Assembly: GCA_013152315.1 (NCBI GenBank) | Contig: JAADGP010000110.1 | Span: forward strand, 1 to 44,029 | DNA from: FCB group bacterium | GTDB lineage: Bacteria > Fidelibacterota > Marinisomatia > Marinisomatales > JAADGP01 | Direction: 5' to 3' | Length of the DNA stretch: 44,029 nt | In this document: one piece after another, positions 1,681 to 24,368 of the stretch | How the letters are laid out: every line of letters starts with the position of its first letter | Numbering within the stretch: the first letter of the stretch is position 1 | Translations under genes and position numbers: made by a program | The notes under the pieces: model-generated | Database searches by the model: none | The model's input: the letters and a program-made list of their open reading frames with translations, nothing else | What the model was told of the DNA's origin: nothing

Positions 1681-1765
1681 CGGGATGGAAAGAAAACAAC
1701 CAAAAACCGACAAATACCATTCACAAAAGCATGCTTCAATCAAATGTTCTGAAAAAATAATCCGG

Positions 1766-1792: not shown

Positions 1793-1824
1793 GCAATTTT
1801 AAAACATAACTATCTTATTGCCGT

Positions 1825-2913
1825 ATGAAATACTTAGACGAATTCCGTGATCCGAAATTGGCAAAGAAAATCGTGGCCGCGATCCGCAACACGGTGACGC
1901 GTCCCTGGGTAATCATGGAAATTTGCGGTGGCCAGACGCACTCCATAATCAAAAACGGTATCGACCAGGTACTTCCGAAGGAAATCGAACTGGTTCACGG
2001 CCCCGGTTGCCCGGTTTGTGTCACTCCCTTGGAGATCATTGACAAAGCGATTGAAATCGCTTCCCGTCCCGAGGTCATCTTCACCAGCTTCGGCGATATG
2101 CTGCGGGTGCCCGGCAGTCGAAAAGACCTCTTTATGGTCAAATCCGAAGGGGGTGATGTCCGAACGGTTTATTCCCCTTTGGAAGCGGTTAAAATCGCCC
2201 GCGAGAACCCGGACCGGGAAGTTGTGTTTTTTGCCGTGGGGTTTGAAACAACGGCTCCCGGAAACGCCCTGGCCATTCACCAGGCCGCGCAGGAAGGATT
2301 GACAAATTTCAGTGAATTGGTCAGTCACGTATTGGTACCGCCGGCAATGGAGGCGCTGCTGTCCGCGCCCGACAATCGGGTCCAGGGTTACCTGGCGGCC
2401 GGTCACGTCTGCACCGTCATGGGTTGGGAGGAATACGAACCGATCGCGAAGAAATACAAAGTCCCGATCGTTCCCACCGGTTTTGAACCGGTGGACATCC
2501 TGGAAGGAATTCTGCTGGTCGTGAAACAACTGGAGGAGGGCCGGTATGAAGTGGAGAATCAGTATCTTCGTTCCGTGAAACGGGAAGGGAATCGTCCGGC
2601 GCAAAAACTAATTAAGGAAATCTTTGAGGTGACCAATCGCAAATGGCGCGGAATCGGGGAAATCCCTTCCAGCGGACTGAAGATCCGTGACAAATACGCA
2701 GATTACGATGCCGAACATAAATTCGATGTAGGCGACATTCAAACCAACGAAGCGGAAATCTGTATTAGCGGGATCATACTCCAGGGATTGAAAAAGCCGA
2801 AGGAATGTCCCGCCTTCGGGAAGGAGTGTTCCCCCAGCCATCCCCTGGGGGCCACCATGGTTTCCAGCGAGGGGGCCTGCGCCGCATATTTTAAATATCA
2901 ACGGTTACAATAG
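1825..2913 (+). CDS. hypD: Hydrogenase formation protein HypD
   Basis: HypD is a [4Fe-4S] scaffold protein that, with HypC, assembles the Fe(CN)2CO unit of [NiFe] hydrogenases in the cytoplasm. The 362-residue length is typical. Visible signatures are [15 protein letters not shown] near residue 31, the redox-active [10 protein letters not shown] motif near residue 67, and a cysteine-rich C-terminal part with [15 protein letters not shown] and [12 protein letters not shown] that supplies the Fe-S cluster ligands. The ATG at 1825 gives the family N-terminus (KYLDEFRDP). No strong Shine-Dalgarno precedes it. It is 5 bp upstream of hypE. Confidence 0.97.
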
Positions 2914-2918
2914 ATCCC

Positions 2919-3983: not shown

Positions 3984-4253
3984 GACATTGGATAGGGACA
4001 GAAATGGTTCAAGAGCCAAGACTCGAATCCGGTGTGACGGATGGTTGAGTGGGAAATATACCTTTCGGTTCACAACAACCGGCGATTCGGGAACCGGCGC
4101 CCGATTTCCATCCTCCGACCGAAAAAATGGATCTGTGTATTTCAAACGGCCGCCTGGGGTCAAGCTATCACCAAAACGGAATCTTACTTGTGGTAACTGC
4201 CTGTTTTCATAAATAAATTCCATCCGCGCGATCATGATAATCGGAGTTAAACA

Positions 4254-5150
4254 ATGTTAAAATATACTTTCAAAACCGCCTTATTAGTTCTGCTTTCAGG
4301 ATTTCTTTTTATCAATAGTTGTTCATTGAAAAACCTGCCTTTTAACCTGGAGTGGTACAACAAATATTCCCAAAAAGCACCTAAGAAATTCATCAAGCCT
4401 ATCGGTTTGGAAACAATAAACAGTTTTGCTTTTAATAATGTCGCCATTATTGAGTTTACCGTCGAATTCCTGGTGGACATCCCCGACCTGGCAGCCAAAA
4501 ACCTGACCGATGAATTGTATAAAATTTTTGTTGAAACGTTGGAAAACAATACCGAATGGAGCATAATAGACGGTCGCCGAATTGCCAGGAGCCCCATTTA
4601 CAGGGCATTGGACAAAAAAGATAAATTGTATCAGTATGATGATTCAAGAACGGGTAATAAGGACAGGACTTTTGTCAGTAAAACCTTTAGCGCTTCACAC
4701 CTTGGAATTTTATTGGCTCCCGAACAAAAAAGAAGATCCTTGCGCAGTTCCGAGAATGAATGGTTCGAAGCCGGTGTATTAAACGACGTAAACGGCGACG
4801 CCGCTCTTAAAGCGCATACCGTTATCGATTATACCGTTAAAAAAGGCAAGGGTCGCTTAATCATTGCCAGCCGGAATAAAAAGCTTTCCCAGCCGACCGG
4901 GATCGAGATTGAAATCGGTTATTCAAAAACATCCGCTCCGGGTATCGGATTTCCGGAAAAAAACGGGGAAAAATTCATCTACAATTACAATAGCCGGTGT
5001 TCGTTCGAATTAAAACGCCCTCTGATTTCCTACAATACCATACGTTCGAATGAAGGTGTTTTTAACCTGGAAGATTTTGTCTTCCGCAGTCACGAGATGT
5101 TTACAATATACACCTCCATGTTGGCAACTGAAATCGCGGCGAAACTATGA
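4254..5150 (+). CDS. Putative lipoprotein of unknown function
   Basis: A 298-residue protein that I do not recognise. The N-terminus is a lipoprotein-type signal: positive start (MLKYTFK), hydrophobic core (LLVLLSGFLFI) and a lipobox-like INSC with Cys23. The mature part is soluble and mixed alpha/beta, with no membrane segment. Two features recall outer-membrane-anchored lipoproteins of the CsgG/curli-assembly style that carry an enzyme-like alpha/beta half (NNVAIIEFTVEF, then a helix and TEWSIIDGRRI), but no family can be assigned. A CGGAG Shine-Dalgarno sits 7 bp before the ATG. It follows hypE by 270 bp and precedes the VKOR-like gene on the same strand. Its base composition is more AT-rich than the hyp genes, which may mean a different history. 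Whether it belongs to the hydrogenase function is unknown. Confidence 0.7.
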   Translation: MLKYTFKTALLVLLSGFLFINSCSLKNLPFNLEWYNKYSQKAPKKFIKPIGLETINSFAFNNVAIIEFTVEFLVDIPDLAAKNLTDELYKIFVETLENNTEWSIIDGRRIARSPIYRALDKKDKLYQYDDSRTGNKDRTFVSKTFSASHLGILLAPEQKRRSLRSSENEWFEAGVLNDVNGDAALKAHTVIDYTVKKGKGRLIIASRNKKLSQPTGIEIEIGYSKTSAPGIGFPEKNGEKFIYNYNSRCSFELKRPLISYNTIRSNEGVFNLEDFVFRSHEMFTIYTSMLATEIAAKL

Positions 5151-5227
5151 ATTTTCCCCTTGTACCCCGGTCTGTTGTTAACCGGTGTGCCCACATGTAG
5201 ACTCGCCGGAACTACAGCATCGCGGCC

Positions 5228-5674
5228 ATGGCCAGCTCCTTATTCGTTATCTTACTGATTGTACCAGCCTTAATAGGATGGTGGAGTTCTCTCTATTTTT
5301 ATCTGGTTCACAAAGAGGTAATCTCTGCGGAAGTATCCTGGATGTTGAAGTTTCTGCGAATGACCGATTGCCGGTGTGATGAGATTGTTGATACGAAATT
5401 CGGGCGGACTTTCGGGAAATCGAACGCTTACTGGGGGCTTTGGTATTATTTAATACTGATTGCCCTGGTAGCGGGCTATCAACTATACGGAATACCAACA
5501 ATCGAATTCCTTTTTATTGTCGCCCTGCTGGTTTTCGCTTACAGCGTATATCTTGCCTGGGGATTGTACATATTAAAAGTTCTGTGTCGTCCCTGCTTAA
5601 CGGTTCACGTAATCAATTTGCTTATTTTTGTGGTTTTATTATTTAAAGTGTGGCCGTTACTATTTGTCGCTTAA
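5228..5674 (+). CDS. Vitamin K epoxide reductase (VKOR) family membrane thiol oxidoreductase
   Basis: A 148-residue, four-helix membrane protein. Bacterial VKORs re-oxidise periplasmic thioredoxin-fold proteins and pass electrons to quinone. The family pattern is visible: loop cysteines at 48 and 50, followed by DEIVDTKFGRTFGKSNAYWG, which matches the VKOR segment where CD is followed by S/T, a FG turn and a small-residue G-Y stretch, and the quinone-side active-site motif C120-R-P-C123 near the last helix. The two loop cysteines are spaced C-x-C, closer than the usual wider spacing. There is no thioredoxin fusion. The partner is probably the separate thioredoxin-like gene converging from the other strand, whose 3' end overlaps this one by 32 bp. 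The start at 5228 lacks a clear Shine-Dalgarno. An in-frame TAG at 5198 limits any extension. Confidence 0.8.
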   Translation: MASSLFVILLIVPALIGWWSSLYFYLVHKEVISAEVSWMLKFLRMTDCRCDEIVDTKFGRTFGKSNAYWGLWYYLILIALVAGYQLYGIPTIEFLFIVALLVFAYSVYLAWGLYILKVLCRPCLTVHVINLLIFVVLLFKVWPLLFVA

Positions 5675-6212
5675 CTGGTTGGGTTGACAAATTACCTAAA
5701 TGCGTTTTGAATAAACCGGCCAGTTTCTCGTCGTCACCGGTTCTGAATCCGGTATGAATCATTTTTATCAACCCTTCGGAAGATATATAGAAAACCGCCG
5801 GCAACGAATAAATGACATAATGAATTTTCGAAGTATTGTTAATATCCACCGCAATCGGTAAATCAATCTTCAGTGAATCTTTCCATTTTATGAAGTCTTC
5901 CTTCGAACCGTTTATCCCCAATAAGATTACATCGATTCCGGCATCCTTATATTTATTTTTCAATTCTTCCAAAAGCTGAGCCAACCGGCGACAAGCATTA
6001 CAGTGAGGGGAAACAAAACAAAGTAAAATAGGTTTGGGCGGTTTTTCCCATTCTCCCAGTCCAATCTTATCGCCTTCCAGCAATTCCGCGTAAAAACCCG
6101 GAGCCGGCCTGTCGATTTTCACCTTTTGTTTGGCATAATAAACGATGGAATTAATAAAGAAACCTGCCAAAATGGAAATGATCACCAGGACAATTATTCC
6201 CAGAGTACTCAT
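5643..6212 (-). CDS. Membrane-anchored thioredoxin-like (TlpA/ResA-type) protein
   Basis: A 189-residue protein with one N-terminal membrane helix (residues ~5-26) and an exported thioredoxin-fold domain. The active site is C71-N-A-C74 in VSPHCNACRRL, and the cis-proline loop is SLPAVFYIS. Family members transfer electrons to or from cysteines of exported or membrane redox proteins. Its ATG starts 1 base after the hyaD stop (TAA, C, ATG), so it is the last gene of the hydrogenase operon and probably translationally coupled. Its 3' end runs 32 bp into the convergent VKOR-like gene, the likely oxidase partner. Hydrogenase operons of other bacteria carry thioredoxin-fold helpers (HyaE/HoxO type), but this one is a membrane-anchored CXXC protein and not an obvious HyaE. 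Confidence 0.85.
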   Translation of the reverse strand: MSTLGIIVLVIISILAGFFINSIVYYAKQKVKIDRPAPGFYAELLEGDKIGLGEWEKPPKPILLCFVSPHCNACRRLAQLLEELKNKYKDAGIDVILLGINGSKEDFIKWKDSLKIDLPIAVDINNTSKIHYVIYSLPAVFYISSEGLIKMIHTGFRTGDDEKLAGLFKTHLGNLSTQPVKRQIVTATL

Positions 6213-6213
6213 G

Positions 6214-6681
6214 TTATGTCATTGACAGCCAATTCATTATTATTTTCCGGCCTTCCGCTACCGCTTGCGGCAACAGTTCCCGTGCGGCAGGACTTAATCC
6301 AATCCCCATTTTCAGATCCTGAGGAGGAATACCTATCAGCGCAATTTCATTGGGAAATCGGTCATGAAGTTTAGCCAGGGACAATAACTCGCTTAATCCG
6401 ATTTGGTGGGAAGACAATTTCCGATGAATGAATGCCGGTAATTCTTCGTTCCTGTACACATATACTTTGCATTCGTACTCGCGCGGTATCAAAGCGTCAA
6501 ACACCAGGAGACAGTCAGTGGATTCAACATAATCCAGTAAATAGATGCCCTGGGTTCCGCCGTCGATGATATCCACCCCTTTGGGAAAAGGATCCGACTT
6601 TTGGAGCTGTTTTACCGCTTCCACTCCAAAACCTTCGTCTCCGAACATGATATTTCCAAGGCCTAATACGTTTATTTTCAC
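6214..6681 (-). CDS. hyaD: Hydrogenase maturation protease (HyaD/HybD family)
   Basis: This endopeptidase removes the short C-terminal tail of the [NiFe] large subunit once nickel has been inserted. The 155-residue protein shows the family nickel-sensing residues: Glu16 in NIMFGDEGFGVEA, Asp62 in VFDALIP and His92 in SSHQIGLSELL, at nearly the same positions as in E. coli HybD. It follows the cytochrome gene by about 104 bp, a gap that holds a strong hairpin, and is immediately followed by the thioredoxin-like gene. The start ATG has only a weak ribosome site (CCTGTGAAA). Confidence 0.95.
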   Translation of the reverse strand: MKINVLGLGNIMFGDEGFGVEAVKQLQKSDPFPKGVDIIDGGTQGIYLLDYVESTDCLLVFDALIPREYECKVYVYRNEELPAFIHRKLSSHQIGLSELLSLAKLHDRFPNEIALIGIPPQDLKMGIGLSPAARELLPQAVAEGRKIIMNWLSMT

Positions 6682-6716
6682 AGGGTAAGTTCCAAATCGG
6701 GTGTTCTATGTTGATT

Positions 6717-6751
6717 GAGGAGGTGAAATCGATAATCGGTTCCACCTCCTC
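6717..6751 (-). other. Strong hairpin inside the hydrogenase operon (hyaC-hyaD spacer)
   Basis: The arms GAGGAGGTG (6717-6725) and CACCTCCTC (6743-6751) form a perfect 9-bp stem with a 17-base loop. On the - strand no T-run follows, so for the operon it looks like a 3'-end-stabilising or processing hairpin after hyaC. On the + strand it is followed within 8 bases by six Ts, so it could stop antisense transcription. Either role would separate hyaABC levels from hyaD and the thioredoxin-like gene. Confidence 0.5.
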
Positions 6752-6785
6752 GTTCGCGTTTTTTAGCTATTAAATTGGGTTATTC

Positions 6786-7478
6786 TTAGTCGGCGTATTC
6801 CGCGCACTCTTCCACGCGGTTTTTGTACCCGGTAATGATGGAAGAGGTTATGCTGGACCGGTTCACAATGTCATGTCGTACCACGGCATACAGATGCAAA
6901 ATCAGATACACCGGGAATACCCAGGCCACCAGATGATGCATGGTATGCATGGTAAGGCTGCTGCCGAACAGCAATACAACCCATCCGAACATGGTATCCA
7001 AAAACCCTCCGGGATTATTCTCGCCATACATGGCCAAACCGGTGAGGATCATAAACCAGGAACCCAGGAACACGAATAGGAAATGTGTCAGGGCCGCAAC
7101 CGGATTATGACCACAGTAATCGGGCTCTTCTTTTTTCAGGAAGAGGTAGCTGGCCAATTGTTCCTTAAACGGCTGTCCCCACCATGCCGGTAACCAGGGC
7201 TTAAACCCACCGAACCTTCCGTACCGATCGTTCCCGAACAAGGCCCAGTACAACCGAAACAGGAAATTGGCAATGAATATGAATGCCGTTCCGAAATGAA
7301 TGTACCTGACCCAGGCCATACGATGGTACCAAACCGCTTCACCAACAGGAGGACTGATAATCGGAAACGCCATGTAGATGCCGGTAACGAAGAGAACGGC
7401 AATGGACAGCGCGTTGATCCAGTGGTAGATCCGTACCGGAAGACGCCAGACATATTGTTCTTCAATTATTCTTGCCAT
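6786..7478 (-). CDS. hyaC: [NiFe] hydrogenase cytochrome b subunit (HyaC)
   Basis: A 230-residue di-heme membrane cytochrome that anchors the periplasmic hydrogenase and passes electrons from the small subunit to the quinone pool. Four hydrophobic helices are visible. Candidate heme-ligand histidines are in RIYHWINALSIAVLFVTGIY, RYIHFGTAFIFIANFLF, and the last helix (MHHLVAWVFPVYLILHLYAV). The family end motif VVRHDIVNRSS is present. It begins 13 bp after the hyaB stop, with a GGGGGT ribosome site before the ATG. The presence of this subunit identifies the enzyme as a membrane-bound respiratory uptake hydrogenase. Confidence 0.96.
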   Translation of the reverse strand: MARIIEEQYVWRLPVRIYHWINALSIAVLFVTGIYMAFPIISPPVGEAVWYHRMAWVRYIHFGTAFIFIANFLFRLYWALFGNDRYGRFGGFKPWLPAWWGQPFKEQLASYLFLKKEEPDYCGHNPVAALTHFLFVFLGSWFMILTGLAMYGENNPGGFLDTMFGWVVLLFGSSLTMHTMHHLVAWVFPVYLILHLYAVVRHDIVNRSSITSSIITGYKNRVEECAEYAD

Positions 7479-7491
7479 GGTCTACCCCCAA

Positions 7492-9210
7492 TCACGAGAT
7501 CTTAACGGTGGTTATTTCGTTCCCGTTCATGTCCATAATGTGCGATGCGCAGGCCAAACAGGGGTCAAAGGAATGAATCGTTCGCAAGATTTCCAGGGGC
7601 ATGTTGGGATCGTCCATCGGTGTGCCTTTCAAGGCGGATTCATAGGCGCCGGAGCGTCCTTTTCCATCGCGCGGAGACGCGTTCCATGTGGAAGGGACAA
7701 CAATTTGATAATCCGCGATTTTCTGATCCTTGATATGAATCCAATGTCCCAGAGCACCCCGCGGAGCTTCGGTAAATCCGAACCCCTGACATTCACTGGG
7801 CCACCGTTCCGGATCCCACATACGATCGTTAAATGTACGCACATCCCCGGACTTTATGTTTTCCATAAGCTGATTATAGAAATGCAGCATAAAGCCGGCG
7901 GTCTGTTTGCATTCAATTCCACGTGCCGCCGTGCGTCCTAAAGTGGAGAACAACGCCTCGGGCCCAACATTCAACGTTTTCAAAACATAGTTCACCGTGT
8001 CAACAATCATCGGATCGCCTTTGGCGTATTGAATCAACACCCGGGACAAGGGGCCGACTTCCATCGGGTTGTCCTTCCAGCGCGGCGTCTTCAACCAACT
8101 GTACTTTTTATCAACGTCCAGGTATTTGTAAGGCGGCTGGGGACCCGTGTATTGCGGATTGGTCTCTCCTTCCCAGGGATGCAATCCTTTGCCATTGCCA
8201 TTGGAATAGGTGTACCAGCTATGGGCGATCTCCTCTTTAACCTGGCTCATATCCTTGGGATCAACATCGTAAATCGTATTCAAATCCTTATTTAGGATTG
8301 CTCCCCGCGGCCACAGAAATGAATTCGGATCATTTACACTTTTCTCGGGGAAATCGCCGTAGGCCAGGTAATTCCCCAAACCACCGCCATATAACCAGCC
8401 TTTATAGTAACCGGCTATGGCAATCAGGTCGGGAATATACACCTGGTCGATGAAGGTAATGGTATCATCGATAATTTTCTTAACCAGGTTCAGGCGTTCG
8501 ATATTGATTGCCCGGTCGCTGTTCAGGTTAATGGCGCTGGCCATTCCACCCACCAGGTAATTGGGATGGGGATTTTTCCCGCCAAACACCGTATGTATTT
8601 TGACAATCTCTTTCTGGAAATCAAGGGCTTCCAGGTAATGGGCCACGGCAATCAGATTGACTTCCGGTGGTAACAGATACCCTTTGTGCCCCCAATAGGC
8701 ATTGGAAAAGATTCCCAGTTGGCCGCTATCCACAAAGGCTTGCAGACGCGCCTTGAGATCTTTAAAATACCCGACGGAGGATTTTGGCCAGGGTGAAATG
8801 CTCTGCGCGATCCGGGAAGCTTCCGCCGGATCGGCGCTCAGAGCGCTGACCACATCCACCCAATCCAAGGCATGCAGATGATAGAAGTGAACCAGGTGAT
8901 CCTGGGTCTGCTGCGTGGCGTTCATCAGATTCCGGATAATCCGCGCGTTGGGAGGAACCTCAACCCCCAGTGCGTCTTCGACGCAACGGATGGAAGCCAG
9001 GGCGTGAACCGTCGTGCATACGCCGCAGATCCGCTGGGTAAAGGCCCACGCATCACGCGGGTCCCGGCCCTTTAAAATGATCTCCAGACCGCGCCACATC
9101 GTCCCGCTGCTGTACGCTTCTTTTATGGTATTATTGCCATCCAAAACGGCTTCGATCCGTAAATGACCTTCGATCCGTGAAACCGGATCGACTACAATTC
9201 GTTTTGCCAT
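7492..9210 (-). CDS. hyaB: [NiFe] hydrogenase large subunit (HyaB, group 1)
   Basis: The catalytic subunit, which oxidises H2 at a Ni-Fe(CN)2CO centre. The 572-residue precursor has both Ni-binding cysteine pairs: RICGVC near residue 60 and DPCLAC near the end. The maturation site is DPCLACASH followed by the 15-residue tail IMDMNGNEITTVKIS, which the HyaD-type protease would remove after the histidine. It lacks its own export signal, as expected for co-export with the Tat-targeted small subunit. A GGAGG ribosome site precedes the ATG, and the gene starts 3 bp after the hyaA stop. Length and N-terminus (VDPVSRIEGHLRIE) are typical of group 1 uptake enzymes. Confidence 0.98.
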   Translation of the reverse strand: MAKRIVVDPVSRIEGHLRIEAVLDGNNTIKEAYSSGTMWRGLEIILKGRDPRDAWAFTQRICGVCTTVHALASIRCVEDALGVEVPPNARIIRNLMNATQQTQDHLVHFYHLHALDWVDVVSALSADPAEASRIAQSISPWPKSSVGYFKDLKARLQAFVDSGQLGIFSNAYWGHKGYLLPPEVNLIAVAHYLEALDFQKEIVKIHTVFGGKNPHPNYLVGGMASAINLNSDRAINIERLNLVKKIIDDTITFIDQVYIPDLIAIAGYYKGWLYGGGLGNYLAYGDFPEKSVNDPNSFLWPRGAILNKDLNTIYDVDPKDMSQVKEEIAHSWYTYSNGNGKGLHPWEGETNPQYTGPQPPYKYLDVDKKYSWLKTPRWKDNPMEVGPLSRVLIQYAKGDPMIVDTVNYVLKTLNVGPEALFSTLGRTAARGIECKQTAGFMLHFYNQLMENIKSGDVRTFNDRMWDPERWPSECQGFGFTEAPRGALGHWIHIKDQKIADYQIVVPSTWNASPRDGKGRSGAYESALKGTPMDDPNMPLEILRTIHSFDPCLACASHIMDMNGNEITTVKIS

Positions 9211-9213
9211 GAT

Positions 9214-10305
9214 TTAATCCTCCTCGGTTTCAACGGTTTTGGATTCTGACGTACCTTTCTTAATGGCCGTACCAATGGCATGAGCCGCCATCCCGGCCGC
9301 CGCGGCACCTACTGCGACTACGCCGATTTTATCGGCATTGCTGTTGACGCCAACGAAGGATACGTCGGCTCTCCGCGTATAAAACGGTCCGTTATCCCAG
9401 AAATCAGGTTCCGAGCAACCAAGACACGGGTGTCCGGATCCGATCGGGAAACTGACTCCTTCATTCCATTTAATCGAGGAACAGGCATTATAGGTGGTGG
9501 GGCCTTTACAACCCATTTTGTACAAACACCATCCCTTGCGCGCACCATCGTCATCAAAACTTTCCACGAACATTCCCGCATCAAAATAGGGGCGGCGTTC
9601 GCATTTATCATGAATCCGTACCCCGTAAAACGTCTTGGGGCGTTTCAACCGATCGAGGTCGGGCAATTTGCCAAACGTTAGGAAGTGGGTAATTACGCCG
9701 GTCATGACTTCGGCAATAGGCGGGCAACCCGGAACGTTGACGACGGGTTTGTTTTTAATAATCTTATGTACCGGTGTAGCGCCGGTGGGATTCGGTCTGG
9801 CGCTTTGGACGCATCCGAAGGAAGCACAGGAACCCCAGGCAATTACGGCCATCGCGTCCGCGGCCGTTTCTTTCAACACATCCAGGAAGGATTCACCGTT
9901 TATCGTGCAATAAACGCCGTTGTCTTTCAGGGGTACATTCCCTTCCACAGCCAGGATGAATTTTCCCTTGTATTCCTTCATTATCTTTTTTCGAATTTCC
10001 TCCAACTGAAATCCGGCGGCGGCGCTGAGCGTGTCGTCATAATCAAGCGATATCATGTTTAATACGATATCCGCTACTATGGGATGGGAAGAACGAATAA
10101 ACGATTCACTGCAACAGGTGCACTCCAAACCGTGCAACCAGATTACCGGAATACGAGGTTTTTTCTCCATGGCGCTAACAATCCGCGGAACCATCGTCGG
10201 AGCCAACCCCAGATACACCGACATCAGGCTACAGAATTTCAGAAAATCACGCCGTTTCACTCCCCTGGCTTCAAAAACCTCAGCGAAGGTTTCTTTCTTT
10301 TCCAC
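9214..10305 (-). CDS. hyaA: [NiFe] hydrogenase small subunit (HyaA), Tat-exported, oxygen-tolerant type
   Basis: The electron-transfer subunit, with proximal, medial and distal Fe-S clusters. I place the start at the GTG at 10305, which has a GGAGGGG ribosome site 5 bases upstream and gives a 363-residue precursor. The twin-arginine signal is KRRDFLKF at residues 17-24, then a hydrophobic stretch. The proximal-cluster region has C62-T-C64-C65 and GSC160ASFGC165, so both supernumerary cysteines of the six-cysteine [4Fe-3S] cluster of group 1d enzymes are present (standard enzymes have Gly at 64 and 165). Distal and medial ligands occur in [22 protein letters not shown] and HPCLGCSEP. The C-terminus has one Gly/Ala-rich membrane helix ([20 protein letters not shown]) that anchors it to HyaC. 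It starts 23 bp after the marR stop and shares that gene's promoter. Confidence 0.97.
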
Positions 10306-10328
10306 AATTCCCCTCCTATTTTGATTGG

Positions 10329-10895
10329 TTAAGTCTGCTTGACAGAACCCACACCCCTTAGTATATGGAGATAACAATGCCCGCTATGAGCACTGATTGT
10401 GCATTCCTGGTCATAGGCTCCGTTACATTGCAGACAGATCAGGTCTATGTTTTCCTCTTGTTCGAGAGAATAGCGAATATATTTTTCCAATAATCGGTGA
10501 AATGTTTTTAACTCTTCGTCGGAAAAATTGGCCATGATGGCTTCCTGGGTACTTTGCCGCTGAGCCTGATAGGTCTCCGCGATGGCCCTGCCTTCCGGTA
10601 ATAAGGAGACAATAGTGGAACGTCGGTCAGTAACAATCCCGGCGCGTTTTACCAGGTTGTTCCGCACCAATTTCTCAATATTCTTGCTGGCCGCCGCCCG
10701 GCTGACGGCGGAAATGTTTGCCAGGTCGCTGACGCTTCGCGGCCCGGTGTTAAACAGGACTTTTAATATCGTAAACTGGGTACGCGATAACGGCTTATCA
10801 GAAATTTTTTCCAGGTAATTGCGTTCATGAACTTCATAAAATATTTTCGCGAGGATTCGAATGTTTTCGGCGATTCTATTTGTTATGGGGACGAT
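10329..10895 (-). CDS. MarR-family regulator with four-cysteine C-terminal tail, first gene of the hydrogenase operon
   Basis: A winged-helix repressor-type protein. The open frame runs from the stop at 10914-10916 to 10329 and encodes [16 protein letters not shown], the recognition-helix region [20 protein letters not shown], and the wing [19 protein letters not shown], followed by a long dimerisation helix. The tail has Cys at about 154, 157, 165 and 174 (C-x2-C-x7-C-x8-C, with two nearby His), suited to binding a metal or Fe-S cluster. No ATG, GTG or TTG occurs in frame before the helix-turn-helix. The first canonical one (TTG, ~10670) would delete it. The best-placed candidate is ATC at 10893-10895, six bases after a GAGG. 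ATA 10884-10886 is another. It lies directly upstream of hyaA and under its own palindrome, so autoregulation of the operon is likely. Confidence 0.8.
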
Positions 10896-10954: not shown

Positions 10955-11599
10955 CTGATTTTTCCGCAACGGACCGCCACAAATCGTTGGTTCCATTATG
11001 AAATAACGGCAAAATATCGAATCAATGACTTGTTCCATTAACTTCTTCCGTCGATCTTATATTGAATTCCGGACGCAATGTTTTATACCTGTTATTTGAA
11101 TCCGTAACGCTAGGAATACTTGAAATCAGGGGGATGTGTTGTGCCCTGATCCTGTCGGTATTTCCATTTAAACCGGGACACGGAATAGAGGTGCGGAGCA
11201 ATAATCACGTTTTACGCTTCAAATAATCACTTATCATATTTCTCCGACAGTCGCTGCGCTCCGACACGCATCCCATTTCACGAATACTATGGGACCTCCC
11301 GTCGACGGGATAACAAGAGGAAGAATATAATTTTAGGTTCCCAAAAAAAGCGTTGCTTTGCTGCTTTTTTGCCCACAAATTTTCCCCTAATTATGGATAC
11401 AAAATTCCACATCATTACAACTGACTTCTTATTTTTATGCAATCGTTGGTTGTGGCCCGAACGGGCCTAATGTTTTTATCATCCGTGTCCAAGGGCACAA
11501 TCAATAAAATTATCCTGGCAAAGTCCAAAACAAAATCACCTTAAGTTTTTATAACCGGTCCGGTTATTGAAACTACGAAAAATGAAAGGGAAAATTCCG
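10955..11599. other. Intergenic stretch between the hydrogenase operon and trpB2
   Basis: About 645 bp with no convincing gene. It holds several inverted repeats: TCCCGTCGACGGGA, a perfect 14-bp palindrome at 11297-11310; the arms TCCCAT and ATGGGA just before it; and GGCCCGAACGGGCC at 11454-11467, followed by TAATGTTTTTATC, which could be a small terminator. AGTCGCTGCGCTCC (11249-11262) recurs in reverse at 24787-24800. The trpB2 promoter must lie near the right end, but I see no clear -35/-10 pair. Confidence 0.5.
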
Positions 11600-12970
11600 A
11601 TGAAGCGAACCAAAATATTGCTGAATGAATCAGAAATGCCGAAACAATGGTATAACATGGCAGCGGATTTACCAAGCCCTCCCCCACCGCCACTGAATCC
11701 GGGGACGCGCCAACCGCTCGGTCCCGAAGACTTATCGCCCCTCTTCCCCATGTCCCTGATCCTACAGGAAGTCAGTCAGGAACGGTTTATCGACATCCCG
11801 GAACCGGTTCTGGAAGCCTTGACTCTGTGGCGTCCAACGCCGTTGATCCGGGCCCATCGACTGGAAAAGGCATTAGGCACACCAGCTAAAATCTACTATA
11901 AATACGAAGGGGTCAGCCCCACGGGAAGTCACAAACCAAACACGGCCGTGGCCCAGGCTTATTACAATAAACAAGATGGTGTTAAACGCCTTTCCACGGA
12001 AACCGGTGCGGGCCAATGGGGCAGTTCCCTGGCCTTTGCCGCAGCTCTGTTCGGACTGGAATGTAAGGTTTACATGGTCAGGATCAGTTTCGAACAAAAA
12101 CCTTATCGAAAAGCGCTCATGGAAAGTTATGGCGCTCAAATCGTGGCCAGCCCCAGTCCCGACACCCAGTCAGGGCGTGCGATTCTGGCGGAAATTCCCG
12201 ATACTCCGGGAAGCCTGGGGATCGCGATATCCGAAGCCGTGGAAGATGCGGCTACCCGTGAGGACACAAAATATTCCCTCGGGAGCGTACTGAATCATGT
12301 TCTTTTGCATCAAACAATTATCGGCCAGGAAGCAATCAAACAACTGGAAATGGCCGGTGATTATCCGGACAAAGTCATCGGATGTGTCGGCGGGGGATCC
12401 AATTTCGCCGGCATTGCCTTTCCCTTCATGAGAGATAAAATCAACGGGAGACAAATCGATTTCATCGCCACGGAACCGGCTTCCTGCCCAACCCTCACCA
12501 AAGGGGAATACCGTTATGATTTCGGTGACACGGCACAGCTCACACCATTGATGCCCATGTACACGCTCGGACACAGCTTTGTTCCGCCGGCCATCCATGC
12601 CGGTGGTCTCCGTTATCACGGTGACGCGCCATTATTGTGCCACCTGGTAAAAGAAGGACTTATCGGCGCCGAAGCGTACACCCAGGTTGATGTTTTTGAA
12701 TCAGCTATTATTTTTGCCAGAAACGAAGGCATCATTCCCGCGCCGGAATCCAACCATGCCGTTCACGGCGCCATCAAGCACGCTCTCCAGGCAAAAGAAG
12801 AAGGCAAAGAAACAACCATCCTCTTTAACCTGTCCGGACATGGATTCTTTGATATGTCCGCTTATTCAAATTACCTGGCCGGCAACCTGATTGATCACGC
12901 CATGACCAACGAGGAGGTACGGGAGAACCTGGAAAAGTTAGCCGGATTACCGCTCAGCTTTCCGGGTTAA
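11600..12970 (+). CDS. trpB: Tryptophan synthase beta chain, TrpB2 type
   Basis: A PLP enzyme that joins indole (or indole derivatives) and serine to give tryptophan. TrpB2 forms act without a tightly bound TrpA and often serve as stand-alone enzymes. The family-specific long N-terminus with a proline-rich segment ([13 protein letters not shown]) is present. The PLP lysine is in [14 protein letters not shown], the serine-binding loop is [10 protein letters not shown], and the phosphate loop is [10 protein letters not shown]. The late [10 protein letters not shown] is also typical. The ATG at 11600 follows an AAAGGGA ribosome-site-like run and gives 456 residues. A TTG at 11567 and an ATG at 11582 are less likely starts. 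No trpA or other trp gene is adjacent, and a terminator hairpin follows, so it is a single-gene unit. Confidence 0.95.
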
Positions 12971-13223: not shown

Positions 13224-16200
13224 ATGTCAATTCCTCTGAATAAAACGGTTGCACAGCTTCTGGACCGCGCCAAACGGTCGACGATTAATCCGCGTGAACT
13301 CCTCGAAGTCGCACAACGGTTACAAAACAACGATGTGCCTTCGGCCGTGATTCACGAATTCCTGAAATTGGGCCATTATCCCACCGTGAATTCAAGTTTT
13401 TACCGCTCCGAACTGGGGCGGGAATGGTTTTCGGTCCTGGTGGAACTGATCAAATCGTCCGGTTACCACGTCGGATATTTAATGCGACAGAGGGCCCGGC
13501 AATACGCTGATAAACCATTATTTCAGTTAATACGGGGGAAGCAGGTAAAATCCTGTTCTTATCAGGAGAGTTGGAAGCGAATCAAACAAATCGGTTGCTC
13601 CATTTTATGTTTTACGGAGAAAACCAAAACCCCGGTAATCGGTATTTACACTCCCAATTCCCTTGAGGGAGCACTGGTGGATTTAGCCTGCTTGTCCTTT
13701 AATTTCCGGGTGGTTCCGATCCCGGCCAATGTATCGGAAAATCACCTGATCTACATTCTACATCATGCCGGAATTACCCATTTATTCCTGGGAGGAACAA
13801 CACCCTGCTCAATTTTTCAACAAATACCAAAACAGTCGTTACAACTATCGGTAATTCAACTTTCCGACACCGATAACATTGATTATCCCACCGTATCATG
13901 GAATTCATTTATCGCCCAGGGAACCGGTATTTCCGACAAGGTGTTACTCGAGCGCCTTTCCTCCGTCGGGATGGATGAACTTGCTTCTGTTATGTACACT
14001 TCAGGAACCACGGCCGATCCGAAAGGAATTATTTTTACGCAGACCAATATTATTTCCAAACGATTCGCGCGCGGTCTGGCCTTGCCCGAATTTTCTTCCG
14101 CTGAGGTTTTTTTGTCCTATTTACCCTTATACCACACCTTCGGCCGTTTTCTCGAATTATTGGGATCAATATTCTGGGGAGCAACCTACACTTTCGCGGA
14201 ATCCCCGGCCTTTAAAACCCTGTTAAAAGATTTTTTATTGGTAAAACCCACCGTGTTCATCAGCATCCCCAAGCGGTGGATTCAATTAACGGAATTTTTA
14301 GGTTCGCAAATCGACATTGAAGAAGCGCCAACCGAAAAGATCACGGATAAACTAATGCAGATTACGGGGGGACGATTGAAATGGGGTTTGTCCGCGGCGG
14401 GGTATTTGGATCCGGATATATTTATTTTTTTCCGGAAACACGGCATTAACCTGTTAAGCGGTTATGGAATGACCGAAGCTACCGGTGGAATTACGATGAC
14501 TCCTCCCGATGACTACCAGCGCGATTCGGTAGGAAAACCCTTACCGGGTGTGGATGTAAAACTGGCGGAGGATGGCGAATTACTCTTGCGTGGTCCGTAC
14601 ATATCCCCCGGCTATTTTCAGGATACCGAACCGGCTAATCGCACTGACGGCTGGTTTCATACCGGGGATATTTTCCGGGAAAAACGGGGACATTATTACA
14701 TCGTCGACCGGAAAAAGGAAATCTACAAAAACAGTCGGGGACAAACCATCTCACCCCAAAGAATTGAGAATATGTTCCAGGATTTTGAAGCGATAAAATC
14801 GGTGTTTTTAGTGGGGGACGGTCGGGAATACAATACCTTGCTAATTTATCCCGATTTCAAAAACACGCCGGTCGAATTTAAAAAAGGCAACGAACAAGCA
14901 ATCCGGGATTATTTCAGCTCATTGGTTCAATCCGTGAATAGTTTCCTGGCACCGTATGAACGAATCGTCAATTTCGCTTTGATTCAACGGGATTTTTCAA
15001 CCGAATACGGAGAATTAACACCCAAGAAAACTTACAAACGAAAAGTAATCCTGAAAAATTTTGCGTCCATAATCGAACCGATGTACGCCAAAGACTACAT
15101 CAGCCTGGTTTATAACGATTATGAAATCCAGTTGCCGAATTGGTTTCTCAGGGAAAAAGGAATCATAAGATCGGATATTACCTGGGATGGACGCGAAATA
15201 CGAATCCGCAATCATCCCGATAAACTACCTTTGCACTGGAACGGGGAAACGGTGCTCGTGGGAGATTATCGCTATTCCTGTCCACAGGGCGCATTGGATA
15301 TCCAGGCGTTGTTAATGTCTCCGGAACTGTGGCTTGGGAACCAGACACTGGTAGAATTTATCGGCGATCCTATTTTCAGAATTATCGAATTCGAACCGCC
15401 GACGAAAATAACGTTAGAAGAACGACAACTTATTTTTAACCCCGATTCTTCCGGTCGGGAACTGAACAATATTTTAAAAAACAGTATTCGTGATCAAAAG
15501 CCCACCCTCTCCAGTTTGCATACCGCGGCTAAATTATTGCAATGCGGCGAGCGTTATGAACTCCTGACGGCAATCAATCATTTGCACCAGGCTATTAACC
15601 AACACCCCAACGATATTGCCCGTGTCGGATTAGCATTACTGCGCCGTATGCAATATCACCCCACCTTAAGAATGAGACTGAAAACCCTGGAATTGATGTT
15701 GCCCCTTCTTCCGGGAGACCAATTCATCACCCACCTGCTGGAAATTTATTCCTTTGCCGTGCAGACGAGATCGGTTGAAATGTTGGCGCTGGAAGAACAG
15801 GCCCTACGGGAATCACACTTCAGGGCTCTCCTGTCGTACCTCGGCTATTTACGGCAAGAGCCGGACCTGATTACGAGCGAACAAATCGGGCTCATCGAGT
15901 GGTTATTGGACCTTGTTTCCGATTATGGAAAGGTGCATCCTTCCAGTTACGTTTGGAGTCGTGCGGAGTTAATCTGGTGGCAGATGTCGCCGGTTCCCGA
16001 ACCACTCCTTTCGGCTTCCGAAAAAGCGTATCATAATCTTGTCGATGGTTTTCGCAAATGGCTGGGACCCGTGTCCAAGTTGGCCATAGACAGGGAAACC
16101 GGGGAGGAATATGATTGGGCGGACGTGATAGAATTCGACGAGGGCATTGACCGGGAACTCCAGGACCGATTGCTGACGGCCTTATCCAATACTCCCTTGA

Positions 16201-17840
16201 TCCGGGAAGCCGTTTTTATCTTTTCGAAACGCCGGTTAATACAATTGGACGATATCCAAAGGCGCGGAATCTGGATCAGCCTGCTGGGGCGGAATCATGG
16301 TAAGAGTGTATTCCGGGTCCTGGTACAGACACGCGAGATGGACGCTTTTAATTTCGTGATCAACGTTAATGAAGAACTGGATAAGGAATTCATTCAGGAT
16401 GAGATACGGTGGCTGGTCATGACCGGTTCATCGATTCACGGTCCCAAGTTGGTTGAAGATTTCGGCGGCTATTGGCCGGAGTATGACCTTTACACCGAAG
16501 AATATGTTCCCGGTGAAACGCTTTATCAATACCTGGAACGGAATCGGGAAGAAATTGCCAGCAAAAAAGCTCTGGATCGTTGGCAAATGCGCTGGCTACA
16601 TTTTATCTGGAACGGTTTAATGGCCTATTTTGATTTTTGGCGCCGCTCAAGCTATACCCTCCGGATTGACAACCCTACCGCGAAAAATCTTATCATTCCC
16701 GAACATGACTATACTTCCGGCACGCGCTTAATCTCGATTTCGAACCGTATTTCCGTCGGTCGCGTATCCGACCTGGTTTTTGATTTATTCGAACGCTTTA
16801 TCCTGGCCACTGAAAAAGAATATCCCGGACTAAAACGAATGGCCGATTGGGAAGTTTTGTTCACCGCCATGTTCCAGACCATTTCCGTGAAAAGGGGAAT
16901 CAGAGTTCTCAGAACCCTATTGGAAGAATTACAGGACGAAGCGCTGCTTAACAAGGCGGAATCGCTGGGGTTAACGCCCAAACGGATCGCCGACTTTATC
17001 GATGATGTTAATGTAAATGGCATTCTTACCAAACAAGTGGTATTTGCCGCCCTGCGTTATGAGCGCTGGCTGGAACTGAACCCCGAGGCCACTTATAAAG
17101 CCCGGGGTAATATTCTTCAGGAATTATATAAAGATTACGGACTAAACGGTCTGTTGGAAGATTATCCGGAAACCCGCATTCGATTTTTCCTGATGACCTG
17201 TTTCAAAAACGCCAATCGGATTCTGACAGACAGGTTGCTACAGTTGCAAAAGGACCTTCGGGCGCGGACAATCAGTATCGAAGAACTCGAACATAAATTG
17301 CATGAAATCCATGAATCGCTGGAATTAACCGAAGAAGAAGAATATTTCTTCACACGGTTGTTATTCGAGCACTTGGATGCGGCCGAATACGGAGAACTAA
17401 TCGCCTGGGACCTGGGTACCGGCGGACGATTGGATCTGATCACTCTAACCGAGGACAAATTCGGGGACCGTTACCGAATAAGACCGCCGTTTCATCCCAA
17501 GGAAATCGCCAAGTTTCATTCCATATTGTTACAGGCGAATTTGTCCGCAACGTTTCAACAGGCTCATGAATTCCTGTTAATAATAAATGAAAAAGATCAA
17601 CTCGTCGGGGGTGTTTACTGGAAGAAGATAAGCCCGCAGGTGGCCTACGTGGAAAAAATTGTGATTCGGCGACAATATCAAAAACGTCACCTAAGCGTTC
17701 GGTTGCTGGAGGAATTGTTTAACCGTTTGCGAACCCGGCGCTTCAAATATGTAACCGTCGGCTTCTTCCACGCCGGTCTTTTTTACAAATACGGGTTCCA
17801 GATTGACAAACAATTTGGTGGTTTGGTAAAAGTCCTTTAA
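13224..17840 (+). CDS. Giant multidomain protein: acyl-CoA synthetase/AMP-binding + unknown helical/kinase-like part + GNAT-like C-terminus
   Basis: 1538 residues. After a ~75-residue helical start, residues ~80-620 are an AMP-binding (ANL) module of the long-chain acyl-CoA synthetase kind: P-loop YTSGTTADPKG (~257-267), GYGMTEATGG (~413), TGDIFREKRGHYYIVDRKKE (~481-500, with the hinge Asp-Arg) and a C-terminal lysine region after KNSRGQTISP. These enzymes activate fatty acids through acyl-AMP. No carrier-protein domain follows. Residues ~630-1420 match nothing I know. Within them ~1050-1170 look faintly like a kinase or aminoglycoside phosphotransferase fold (a hinge-like YTEEYVPGETLYQYL, then RIDNPTAKNLII in place of a catalytic loop). 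Residues ~1430-1538 resemble a GNAT acyltransferase (VAYVEKIVIRRQYQKRHLS, then a helix), but the usual Q/R-x-x-G-x-G acetyl-CoA loop is degenerate. No signal or membrane segment is evident. It is flanked by terminator-like hairpins, so it is a single-gene unit. Confidence 0.85.
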   Translation: MSIPLNKTVAQLLDRAKRSTINPRELLEVAQRLQNNDVPSAVIHEFLKLGHYPTVNSSFYRSELGREWFSVLVELIKSSGYHVGYLMRQRARQYADKPLFQLIRGKQVKSCSYQESWKRIKQIGCSILCFTEKTKTPVIGIYTPNSLEGALVDLACLSFNFRVVPIPANVSENHLIYILHHAGITHLFLGGTTPCSIFQQIPKQSLQLSVIQLSDTDNIDYPTVSWNSFIAQGTGISDKVLLERLSSVGMDELASVMYTSGTTADPKGIIFTQTNIISKRFARGLALPEFSSAEVFLSYLPLYHTFGRFLELLGSIFWGATYTFAESPAFKTLLKDFLLVKPTVFISIPKRWIQLTEFLGSQIDIEEAPTEKITDKLMQITGGRLKWGLSAAGYLDPDIFIFFRKHGINLLSGYGMTEATGGITMTPPDDYQRDSVGKPLPGVDVKLAEDGELLLRGPYISPGYFQDTEPANRTDGWFHTGDIFREKRGHYYIVDRKKEIYKNSRGQTISPQRIENMFQDFEAIKSVFLVGDGREYNTLLIYPDFKNTPVEFKKGNEQAIRDYFSSLVQSVNSFLAPYERIVNFALIQRDFSTEYGELTPKKTYKRKVILKNFASIIEPMYAKDYISLVYNDYEIQLPNWFLREKGIIRSDITWDGREIRIRNHPDKLPLHWNGETVLVGDYRYSCPQGALDIQALLMSPELWLGNQTLVEFIGDPIFRIIEFEPPTKITLEERQLIFNPDSSGRELNNILKNSIRDQKPTLSSLHTAAKLLQCGERYELLTAINHLHQAINQHPNDIARVGLALLRRMQYHPTLRMRLKTLELMLPLLPGDQFITHLLEIYSFAVQTRSVEMLALEEQALRESHFRALLSYLGYLRQEPDLITSEQIGLIEWLLDLVSDYGKVHPSSYVWSRAELIWWQMSPVPEPLLSASEKAYHNLVDGFRKWLGPVSKLAIDRETGEEYDWADVIEFDEGIDRELQDRLLTALSNTPLIREAVFIFSKRRLIQLDDIQRRGIWISLLGRNHGKSVFRVLVQTREMDAFNFVINVNEELDKEFIQDEIRWLVMTGSSIHGPKLVEDFGGYWPEYDLYTEEYVPGETLYQYLERNREEIASKKALDRWQMRWLHFIWNGLMAYFDFWRRSSYTLRIDNPTAKNLIIPEHDYTSGTRLISISNRISVGRVSDLVFDLFERFILATEKEYPGLKRMADWEVLFTAMFQTISVKRGIRVLRTLLEELQDEALLNKAESLGLTPKRIADFIDDVNVNGILTKQVVFAALRYERWLELNPEATYKARGNILQELYKDYGLNGLLEDYPETRIRFFLMTCFKNANRILTDRLLQLQKDLRARTISIEELEHKLHEIHESLELTEEEEYFFTRLLFEHLDAAEYGELIAWDLGTGGRLDLITLTEDKFGDRYRIRPPFHPKEIAKFHSILLQANLSATFQQAHEFLLIINEKDQLVGGVYWKKISPQVAYVEKIVIRRQYQKRHLSVRLLEELFNRLRTRRFKYVTVGFFHAGLFYKYGFQIDKQFGGLVKVL

Positions 17841-21478: not shown

Positions 21479-21919
21479 TTATGTTTGCGTAGTATCCCGA
21501 TCCGACATTTCTTTATAAACCGCGTCCAAAATTCCGTTCACAAAACCGGGACTTTCTTCCGTGCTATACTCTCTTGCTATTTCAATTGCTTCGGTAATCG
21601 AAACCTTCGGAGGTACGTCTTCGATAAAATATAATTCGCTGATCGCCAACCGTAATATTAAACGATCCAGGCGAGCCACCCGGTCAAAATTCCAATTCTC
21701 CAGATGGCGGGTGATTTTTTCATCAATCCAGGAACCATTATGCACGGTTTTCCAATAAAGATCCTGAACAAATGTTTCGGTTTCCTCATTGAAGTCATAG
21801 CGGGAAAGAATATCACGTATGACTTTCTCCGGATTGTCCTGGGTAAGCTCCAAAGCGTATAATGCCTGTAGCACGCTTTCGCGCGCCAGGCGGCGCGGAT
21901 GTTTTTTACCGGTAGTCAT
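21479..21919 (-). CDS. nusB: Transcription antitermination factor NusB
   Basis: A 146-residue all-helical protein. NusB binds boxA RNA with NusE/S10 and supports rRNA antitermination. The N-terminal signature RRLARESVLQALYALELT and the late LRLAISELYFIEDVPPKVSITEAIEIAREYSTEESPGFVNGILD segment (described here by its first and last parts: LRLAISELYF and FVNGILDAV) are clear. Length is typical. secA starts 19 bp downstream. A 113-bp gap separates it from the acyl-CoA dehydrogenase gene upstream on the same strand. Confidence 0.96.
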   Translation of the reverse strand: MTTGKKHPRRLARESVLQALYALELTQDNPEKVIRDILSRYDFNEETETFVQDLYWKTVHNGSWIDEKITRHLENWNFDRVARLDRLILRLAISELYFIEDVPPKVSITEAIEIAREYSTEESPGFVNGILDAVYKEMSDRDTTQT

Positions 21920-22032
21920 TTTAATTCACCCGGCGGGTCAATAAAAAACCTCACCTTTATGCCTTTGTTTATGTTCATCATTGTAAATACGTACGACCTG
22001 ATCAATGTTTTAATCCCTGTTTAGGTTACGGT

Positions 22033-23181
22033 TCACGCGCTGCCCTTTAATACTTCGCGGGCGATGACCATTTCCTGAATTTCGGAAGTGCCCTCATATA
22101 TTTGCGTGATTTTGGCATCACGCATCAATCGTTCCACACCATATTCCTGCATATAGCCATAGCCACCGTGGATCTGCACACAATCGCGGGCCGCGTCCAC
22201 GGCTGTTTGGGAAGCGAACAATTTCGCCATCGAAGCTTCCTTTACATAGGATTTATGCTCATCTTTCAATTTGGCGGCCTGCCAAATCAACAACCGGGCC
22301 GCCTCAATGCGCGTTGCCATCCGGGCAATTTTCGATTGGATGGCTCCAAACTGAGCAATCGGCTTCCCGAATTGTTTCCGTTCTTTCGCGTACTCGATAC
22401 TATGATCCAAGGCCGCTTTCGCGATTCCCAAAGCCTGGGAGGCTATTCCGATCCGCCCCCCGTCAAGTGTATGTAAAGCAATTCGAAAACCAAGTCCTTC
22501 TTCACCAATCAGGTTTCCGGCCGGAACACGGCAATCCTCAAAATACAATTCACACGTATCCGAGCCCCTGATTCCTAATTTATCTTCCTTTTTACCCGTC
22601 GAAAACCCGGGAGTTCCTTTTTCAACAATAAAAGCCGAAATCCCCTTATAACCAATTCCCTTTTGCGTAATCGCGAAAACAAGCACCAGATCGGAATTAA
22701 TGCCGTTGGTGACCCAATTTTTGGTTCCATTTAAAACATAACTGTCACCATCTTTCACCGCAATGGTACGCATATTGCTGGCATCCGATCCGGATTGCGG
22801 TTCGCTTAAACTAAACGCGCCTAACAATTCGCCGGTAGCCAACCGAGTAAGGTATTTTTTGCACTGTTGCTCGTTTGCCCATTCCACGAAAATCTGACAA
22901 ACCAAAGAGTTGTTCACCGACATAATTACTCCCGCGGAAGCATCAACGCGGGAAATTTCCTCAATGGCAATCACATAACTGACCGCATCCAGGCCGGCGC
23001 CGTTCCACTTTTCGGGCACCATCATACCCATAAATCCCAATTCGCCCATCATCTTAACCTGTTGAGCCGGGAATTCCGCTTTCTCATCGCGCGTAATTAC
23101 CCCGGGGGCCAAATGCTTTTCAGCAAATTCACGCGCCGTCTTCCGAATTAATTCCTGTTCCTCGGTCAAATGAAAATCCAT
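22033..23181 (-). CDS. Acyl-CoA dehydrogenase (short-chain/butyryl-CoA type)
   Basis: An FAD flavoprotein that introduces the alpha-beta double bond in acyl-CoA and passes electrons to electron-transfer flavoprotein. The start ATG at 23181 overlaps the thiolase stop by one base (TGATG), which signals translational coupling and gives the family N-terminus DFHLTEEQELIRKTAREFA and 382 residues. FAD-binding LSEPQSGSD and NWVTNG stretches are visible, and the catalytic Glu is in QIYEGTSEIQ, the position used by short-chain enzymes. With the thiolase it forms a beta-oxidation or butyrate-type module. The exact chain-length preference cannot be read. Confidence 0.93.
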   Translation of the reverse strand: MDFHLTEEQELIRKTAREFAEKHLAPGVITRDEKAEFPAQQVKMMGELGFMGMMVPEKWNGAGLDAVSYVIAIEEISRVDASAGVIMSVNNSLVCQIFVEWANEQQCKKYLTRLATGELLGAFSLSEPQSGSDASNMRTIAVKDGDSYVLNGTKNWVTNGINSDLVLVFAITQKGIGYKGISAFIVEKGTPGFSTGKKEDKLGIRGSDTCELYFEDCRVPAGNLIGEEGLGFRIALHTLDGGRIGIASQALGIAKAALDHSIEYAKERKQFGKPIAQFGAIQSKIARMATRIEAARLLIWQAAKLKDEHKSYVKEASMAKLFASQTAVDAARDCVQIHGGYGYMQEYGVERLMRDAKITQIYEGTSEIQEMVIAREVLKGSA

Positions 23182-24368
23182 CAGATTCTCTCTATTATGA
23201 CTGCCGATGCTTCTCCGCCACCGATACAAAGGGTTGCCAGACCGGTCCGGGATCCGGTTCTTTCCATCGCATGGATCAAGGTAGTTAATATCCGTGCTCC
23301 CGATGCCCCGATCGGATGTCCCAGGGCAATTGCGCCCCCGTTGACGTTTACTTTTTCGGGGGCTATTTTAAAATCGTCGATGGCCGCCATCGCGACGGGC
23401 GCAAAGGCCTCATTGATTTCCCACAAATCGATGTCGCCGGGTTGCATTCCGGCTTTTTTCAGCGCTTTTTCGATGGCTTTTGTGGGGGCGGTGGTAAACC
23501 ATTCCGGCGCGTGAGCGGCCGATGCCTGGGCAACAACGCGCATCCCGGGGTTCAAATTCAAATGTTCCGCCATTTCCCGGGACATTAGCAAAACCGCCGC
23601 GGCTCCGTCATTGATTTTGGAGGCGTTGGCGGCGGTGATTGTTCCGTCCTGCTCAAAAGCCGGACGCAGTTTGGCCATTTTCTCGAACCGGGCCCGCCCC
23701 GGTTCTTCATCCTGGTCGATGGTAATCGGCTCGCGCTTGCGCCGGGGAACTTCCACCGGGATAATCTCCGCGGCAAACCATCCCTCAGCCTGAGCGCGCT
23801 GCGCCCTGAGATACGATTCTTTCGCGAATTCATCCTGCTGTTCCCGGGAGTATTTTCTCTCCCGGGCACAGAGCTCGGCACAGTTTCCCATATGCATGTC
23901 ATTGTACACATCCCATAAACCGTCTTTGATCATGCTGTCGATAAGTTTCCCGTGTCCCAAGCGATATCCCTCACGCGCCTTCGGCAATAAGTAAGGGGCC
24001 AACGACATATTCTCCATCCCGCCGGCGACCACACAACGGGCATCGCCCACCTGAATGGCCTGGGCGGCCAACATCACGGCTTTCAATCCCGAACCACACA
24101 TTTTGTTAATGGTCAGGCACTCGACCCCATTCGGAAGACCGGCAAATATGGCCGCCTGCCGCGCCGGCGCCTGCCCCAATCCCGCGGACAATACATTCCC
24201 CATGATGACTTCATCCACCTGCCCGGGATTAATTCCGGCCCGTTCGATTACTCCTTTAATGGCCAGGGCTCCTAAACTTGGCGCCGATATTGAGGATAGA
24301 GCTCCCTGGAAAGAACCAACCGGCGTTCGCCCGGCGGCAATAATTACAACTTCATGAAACTGGGACAT
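23181..24368 (-). CDS. Acetyl-CoA acetyltransferase (thiolase)
   Basis: A 395-residue type II thiolase that condenses two acetyl-CoA or cleaves 3-ketoacyl-CoA. The nucleophilic cysteine is in NKMCGSGLKA near residue 90, the catalytic His is in NEAFAPVAMA near 350, and the second Cys and GGG loop are in TLCIGGGEASAV. The N-terminal AAGRTPVGSFQGALS is typical. It is the first gene of a two-gene unit with the acyl-CoA dehydrogenase. A GGAAGTAGCG stretch precedes the ATG. The 686-bp spacer upstream must hold the promoter. Confidence 0.96.
   Translation of the reverse strand: MSQFHEVVIIAAGRTPVGSFQGALSSISAPSLGALAIKGVIERAGINPGQVDEVIMGNVLSAGLGQAPARQAAIFAGLPNGVECLTINKMCGSGLKAVMLAAQAIQVGDARCVVAGGMENMSLAPYLLPKAREGYRLGHGKLIDSMIKDGLWDVYNDMHMGNCAELCARERKYSREQQDEFAKESYLRAQRAQAEGWFAAEIIPVEVPRRKREPITIDQDEEPGRARFEKMAKLRPAFEQDGTITAANASKINDGAAAVLLMSREMAEHLNLNPGMRVVAQASAAHAPEWFTTAPTKAIEKALKKAGMQPGDIDLWEINEAFAPVAMAAIDDFKIAPEKVNVNGGAIALGHPIGASGARILTTLIHAMERTGSRTGLATLCIGGGEASAVIIERI

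Follow-up and report, generated by a model that had tools for sequence, protein, structure and literature searches.

The window analyzed here is a 44,029-nucleotide stretch from a member of the Fidelibacterota, the phylum also known as Neomarinimicrobiota. It carries, on the forward strand, a single uninterrupted open reading frame (13224–17840, +) encoding a protein of 1538 residues. Upstream (4–10377) lie NiFe-hydrogenase structural genes and the maturation genes for HypD, HypE and HypF, the last truncated by the window start, and a TrpB2-type tryptophan synthase beta-like gene (11567–12970, +; NF009057, 751 bits) immediately precedes the frame on the same strand. Downstream (21479–24368, −) lie a SecA gene and, after it, genes for NusB-like, acyl-CoA dehydrogenase and thiolase proteins.

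The protein (13224..17840, +) is organized as an acyl-activating (ANL) module, a beta domain, a solenoid, a pseudokinase, a helical bundle and a GNAT domain, and full-length homologues share the identical order. The individual modules are of known kinds and their fusion is a conserved multi-module enzyme; the architecture as a whole appears to be undescribed. Among open-licence papers, we found none matching such a fusion and none reporting an acyl-activating enzyme with a conserved pseudokinase within it.

The AMP-binding N-domain of the ANL module (residues 88–465; 13485..14618, +) matches Pfam PF00501 (7.4e-55) and contains the P-loop YTSGTT..PKG, the A5 motif GYGMTE and the A7 motif TGD, whereas the C-domain (AMP-binding_C_3, residues 504–623; 14733..15092, +) matches PF23562 (6.5e-12) and contributes the hinge Asp and a putative A10 Lys. 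The candidate A10 lysine is K601 within GELTPKKTYKR (15024..15026, +), assigned by its position near the C-domain end and not from structure, and it is Lys in 40/40 representatives. The P-loop, GYGMTE and TGD are invariant or nearly so across these 40 proteins, which also keep the hinge DRKK with the single exception of a K497I substitution. The first-pass annotation had called this module intact, in agreement with the Pfam domains found above cut-offs and the motifs kept throughout the representatives. The top family-level scores belong to FadD11-type fatty acid-CoA ligases and carboxylic acid reductases, from which the fusion differs in having neither a reductase nor a phosphopantetheine domain; the score against NF038343 (166.9 bits) is far under the curated cut-off of 950 bits, and PDB entry 5mso is matched with an E-value of 5e-25. 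Judged from its sequence, the ANL part probably activates a carboxylic acid, fatty-acid-like in nature.

About 775 residues separate the ANL module from the GNAT domain. Residues 626–1400 of the window protein, searched alone, matched no Pfam or NCBIfam family, and the same segment of 32 homologues, each scanned separately, matched no Pfam family. The roughly 800 residues following the ANL module had been described as matching no nameable family, a description that stands, and no known family with a different role claimed the region by sequence. Neither Pfam nor NCBIfam covers this large, conserved middle region. Family searches extended to E-values of 10 returned NB-ARC in scattered members (E 0.02–0.08) and one weaker stray match, both of which we rejected as chance. 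The region was correctly seen as unassigned by sequence, but it is not one unit: modeling of residues 626–990 and 930–1400 with AlphaFold2, combined with Foldseek searches, resolves it into several modules comprising a beta domain, a solenoid and a kinase fold.

The AlphaFold2 model of residues 626–990 (38 sequences, mean pLDDT 91.5) has a small beta-rich domain that leads into stacked helices. The beta-rich domain (residues 626–695; 15099..15308, +; pLDDT about 95) has no family name, and a conserved EIxIPxWxLREKG...DIxWDG...GDYxY pattern runs along it after the ANL module. The helices are predicted to form an ARM/HEAT-type alpha-solenoid (residues about 743–946; 15450..16061, +), as suggested by the model and by a profile search of the PDB, in which the 626–990 alignment retrieved armadillo-repeat chains (2.7e-7). 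The best Foldseek matches of the solenoid are to armadillo, importin and beta-catenin structures and are weak (best E 1e-2).

The model of residues 930–1400 (mean pLDDT 89.5) shows strands and helices in kinase order, and residues about 1010–1215 (16251..16868, +) are predicted to adopt a bilobal protein-kinase fold. Foldseek returned 286 PDB matches at E ≤1e-3 (best 1.8e-5, probability 1.00), the best 50 of which are all kinase-fold proteins; Bud32, PRPK, FGFR2, JAK2, JAK3, EGFR, PsiK and corramycin phosphotransferase are among the matches listed. Searching the viral structure library BFVD likewise yielded mostly protein kinases (best 5.9e-5). The alignments to kinases have large r.m.s.d. and moderate TM-scores (target-normalized up to 0.59), which indicates a kinase-type fold rather than a close kinase relative. 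A PDB profile search reached the JAK2 pseudokinase with an E-value of 1.3, which by itself is not significant, and hhalign probabilities against Pkinase (PF00069) and APH (PF01636) were 2.5 and 2.7%, respectively, also not significant, with comparison alignments built from KSB1-phylum genomes and only four sequences in the APH one. Both scores exceeded those of five shuffles, and the best local Pkinase match places the hinge in register. Since the profile–profile comparison is not significant, the kinase assignment is based on predicted structure, and we do not claim membership in the known bacterial pseudokinase families (ActPs1-3, GLW, CP1, DYD and DLHK), which likewise have a protein-kinase fold in which catalytic residues have been lost (PMC12599244). 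The review of these families makes no mention of acyl or acetyltransferase partners (PMC12599244).

We placed the kinase motifs using the secondary structure of the AlphaFold2 model. The beta3 ATP-binding Lys position is occupied by N1047 (16362..16364, +), which is Asn in 37/40 representatives and Lys in none of the 40. The catalytic-loop equivalent extends from N1150, at the HxD Asp position, to N1155 (16671..16688, +); residue 1150 is Asn in the window protein and Asp in 11/40 representatives, and residue 1155, the Asn following HxD, is kept in 36/40. The alpha-C Glu is also kept in 36/40, the expected DFG site (residues 1171–1173) reads SIS, and D1162 in the PEHDY loop that follows the catalytic loop (16707..16709, +) is invariant (40/40). 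The beta3 Lys, HxD Asp and DFG Asp expected of an active protein kinase or APH are all missing from the window protein, and the modeled fold looks catalytically dead, while N1047, E1060, N1155 and D1162 make up a conserved non-canonical set within it. This pattern fits a pseudokinase, which may have retained ligand binding. These observations, namely the predicted fold and the lost catalytic residues, support the kinase-type layout with a non-standard catalytic loop proposed from the first reading of the sequence. The HxD Asp survives in some members of the outer group and in a minority of the inner ones, which may point to a kinase-like ancestor that underwent gradual loss.

A bundle of AlphaFold2-predicted helices (residues 1216–1394; 16869..17405, +), with a strongly conserved FAxLRYxRWxxLNPxAT motif, lies between the pseudokinase and the GNAT domain (residues about 1395–1538; 17406..17837, +). 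The suspected GNAT-like end is a GNAT by sequence, as two Pfam families score above cut-off, PF13673 (Acetyltransf_10, 28.5 bits versus 23.6) and PF00583 (Acetyltransf_1, 27.2 versus 20.7), with a match spanning about residues 1422–1525; PF00583 is also found in three outer homologues. In the PDB, the closest chain (E 1e-4) is GCN5 of Tetrahymena, a protein lysine acetyltransferase, and weak NCBIfam similarities, all under cut-off, connect the domain to amino-acid N-acetyltransferase and RimI. The acetyl-CoA (pyrophosphate) loop was reported to be degenerate, which is true of the window protein, where QKRHLS departs from the R/Q-x-x-G-x-G/A consensus, but not of several relatives, above all outer ones, which have a near-canonical R-x-x-G-[ILV]-S loop. 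The loop glycine is found in 6/7 of the outer representatives and in 6/33 of the inner ones.

All modules are co-retained and each is under purifying selection, as seen in simple Nei–Gojobori counts for two pairs of homologues. The window protein and its relative L022 are identical at 1391 of 1538 residues, with synonymous distances of 0.6–0.9, and their dN/dS ratios run from 0.020 (GNAT) through 0.031 (pseudokinase), 0.042 (beta domain), 0.049 (ANL module) and 0.066 (helical bundle) to 0.124 (solenoid). The L024/L050 pair yields 0.070 for the GNAT, 0.095 for the pseudokinase and 0.28 for the ANL module. In these close pairs, the pseudokinase and the GNAT have lower ratios than the ANL module, which argues against decay of either part, and on these ratios we reject reading the degenerate GNAT loop as a sign of decay.

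The fusion occurs in 69 of 175 sampled Neomarinimicrobiota genomes and in 10 of 82 genomes sampled from the phylum of a KSB1 genome, two lineages known almost solely from metagenomes. Homologue frames are mostly open and about 1500–1630 residues long, and the shorter ones that we inspected are at contig ends or broken. Full-length homologues keep the same arrangement, and neither a standalone middle region nor any other order was seen in the Neomarinimicrobiota (175) and KSB1 (82) samples. The fusion was found in 0/247 Desulfobacterota and 0/299 Pseudomonadota genomes, samples with no internal positive control that provide weak evidence of absence, and the lack of relatives on plasmids and viral contigs is likewise weak evidence. 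In a tree of 43 proteins, the KSB1 sequences group apart from the inner Neomarinimicrobiota and from two outer families within the latter phylum, which are likewise separate from each other; the KSB1-phylum protein L114 is very divergent and still has ANL and GNAT domains. Genome T3L19 encodes two copies (L049 and L074), indicating that paralogues exist.

A gene encoding a GAF-HD-GYP protein lies directly upstream of the fusion gene in divergent orientation at 36 of 62 loci, usually with a gap of 25–190 bp, and this head-to-head arrangement suggests a shared divergent promoter region. At locus L061, for instance, the c-di-GMP phosphodiesterase-like gene spans 6132–7892 (−). In the outer clades, the fusion gene was not seen with this neighbor, and the homologue in the window's own genome is on another contig; a link to c-di-GMP is possible, and synteny alone could account for the association. 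In most loci, the flanking genes are on the opposite strand, with a cytochrome-oxidase assembly cluster downstream in 32 loci (identified by eye from sequence) and SecA downstream in six. No conserved operon pointing to an acceptor or an acyl substrate was found at the loci compared.

We favor, tentatively and at somewhat less than an even chance, the interpretation that the protein couples an acyl-CoA synthetase with a GNAT acyltransferase and that the solenoid and the pseudokinase serve as scaffold or regulator. The ANL half would convert a fatty-acid-like carboxylic acid and ATP into an acyl-adenylate and then an acyl-CoA, and the C-terminal GNAT would transfer the acyl group of this product, or of acetyl-CoA, to an amine, likeliest on a protein. 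The solenoid and the dead kinase fold would join the active sites, bring in the acceptor and/or switch the enzyme via a ligand. Every catalytic step, the nature of the acyl chain and of its acceptor, and which way regulation runs are our inferences. The domain assignments, the invariant ANL motifs, the solenoid and the kinase fold with its losses argue for this coupling, as do the maintenance of the full-length architecture, the low GNAT and pseudokinase dN/dS and GCN5 as closest solved relative; the off-consensus CoA loop of the lineage, variable in the family, and the flanks without a conserved operon naming acceptor or substrate count against it. If the two catalytic ends cooperate, acyl activation and acylation would take place in one chain governed by a pseudokinase. 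The self-contained acylation machine proposed in the first-pass annotation is therefore partly supported: its anatomy holds, whereas transfer by the GNAT of the ANL-made acyl group, and of long chains instead of acetyl, is putative, and a GNAT regulating its own chain is a serious alternative. It is improbable, in our estimation, that N1047, E1060, N1155 and D1162 serve to bind the acyl-adenylate or a nucleotide and thereby control or join acyl transfer between the ANL and GNAT parts; if true, this would be a pseudokinase-controlled acylation enzyme in one chain, of which we found no description.

The large domain of Pat is an NDP-forming CoA-ligase-like regulatory domain. Like the fusion, Pat of Salmonella and R. 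palustris is a large single chain with a C-terminal GNAT after a large regulatory domain (PMC4053389), whereas the fusion has an AMP-forming ANL module with intact motifs and a pseudokinase. Acetylation of the active-site Lys is how GNATs such as Pat and AcuA switch off AMP-forming CoA ligases (PMC11255334; PMC4053389), and AcuA binds AcsA tightly, blocks it and acetylates this residue (PMC11255334). On this close precedent, the fused GNAT could acetylate or clamp K601 of its own chain at high acetyl-CoA, with the pseudokinase and the solenoid sensing the signal that sets the brake, in a one-chain version of AcsA–AcuA. The Lys at position 601 in 40/40 representatives and the strictness of the fusion in the samples seen are consistent with such a self-braked synthetase, the leading alternative, which we nevertheless regard as rather unlikely. 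K601 in ELTPKKTYKR is at most a candidate Pat-type site, the Pat/AcuA enzymes act on substrates that are separate proteins, and the GNAT being the most constrained domain also fits a catalytic main role. The Bacillus AcsA–AcuA and the Acs–Pat systems likewise pair an AMP-forming CoA ligase with a GNAT lysine acetyltransferase, and the active-site Lys is retained here; however, the fusion is one chain in which about 775 residues (beta domain, solenoid, pseudokinase and helical bundle) separate the two, its ANL part is closest to FadD11/carboxylic acid reductase-like ligases and not to acetyl-CoA synthetase, and acetylation in cis is putative. Coupling of synthetase and acyltransferase requires an acceptor, whereas self-braking requires K601 only; we prefer the former, and the separation is not decisive. 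Even as a self-braked ligase, the protein would offer a natural fused model for GNAT control of AMP-forming ligases.

The protein could also be a small-molecule N-acyltransferase, in which the GNAT passes the acyl group of the ANL-derived acyl-CoA to an amino acid or a lipid head group and the middle region is purely structural. Both halves are present, and the weak, sub-cut-off NCBIfam similarity extends to amino-acid N-acetyltransferase as well as to RimI, but the closest solved relative modifies protein lysines, a strongly constrained pseudokinase is heavy machinery for such an enzyme and biosynthetic neighbors are absent at the loci compared, making this reading doubtful. Least probable of all, in our view, is a signaling hub in which the pseudokinase, on binding a nucleotide or a c-di-GMP pathway partner, gates the ANL module, leaving the GNAT mostly as a ligand sensor. 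The divergent GAF-HD-GYP gene at 36/62 loci and the conserved, non-canonical N1047, E1060, N1155 and D1162 would suit this role, whereas the distribution of that gene, not seen in the outer clades and on another contig in the window's genome, argues against it, and the linkage may be mere conserved synteny.

The SecA-to-thiolase block adjoins the fusion gene only in the window's close relatives (L022, L024, L050 and L073, plus duplicates), and a TrpB-like relative lies upstream in L022, L027 and L058 as well. In a second setting, the fusion gene follows outer-membrane-type genes (neighbor clusters 32, 25 and 21), as observed in L028, L029, L041, L063, L068, L072, L074, L075 and L077.
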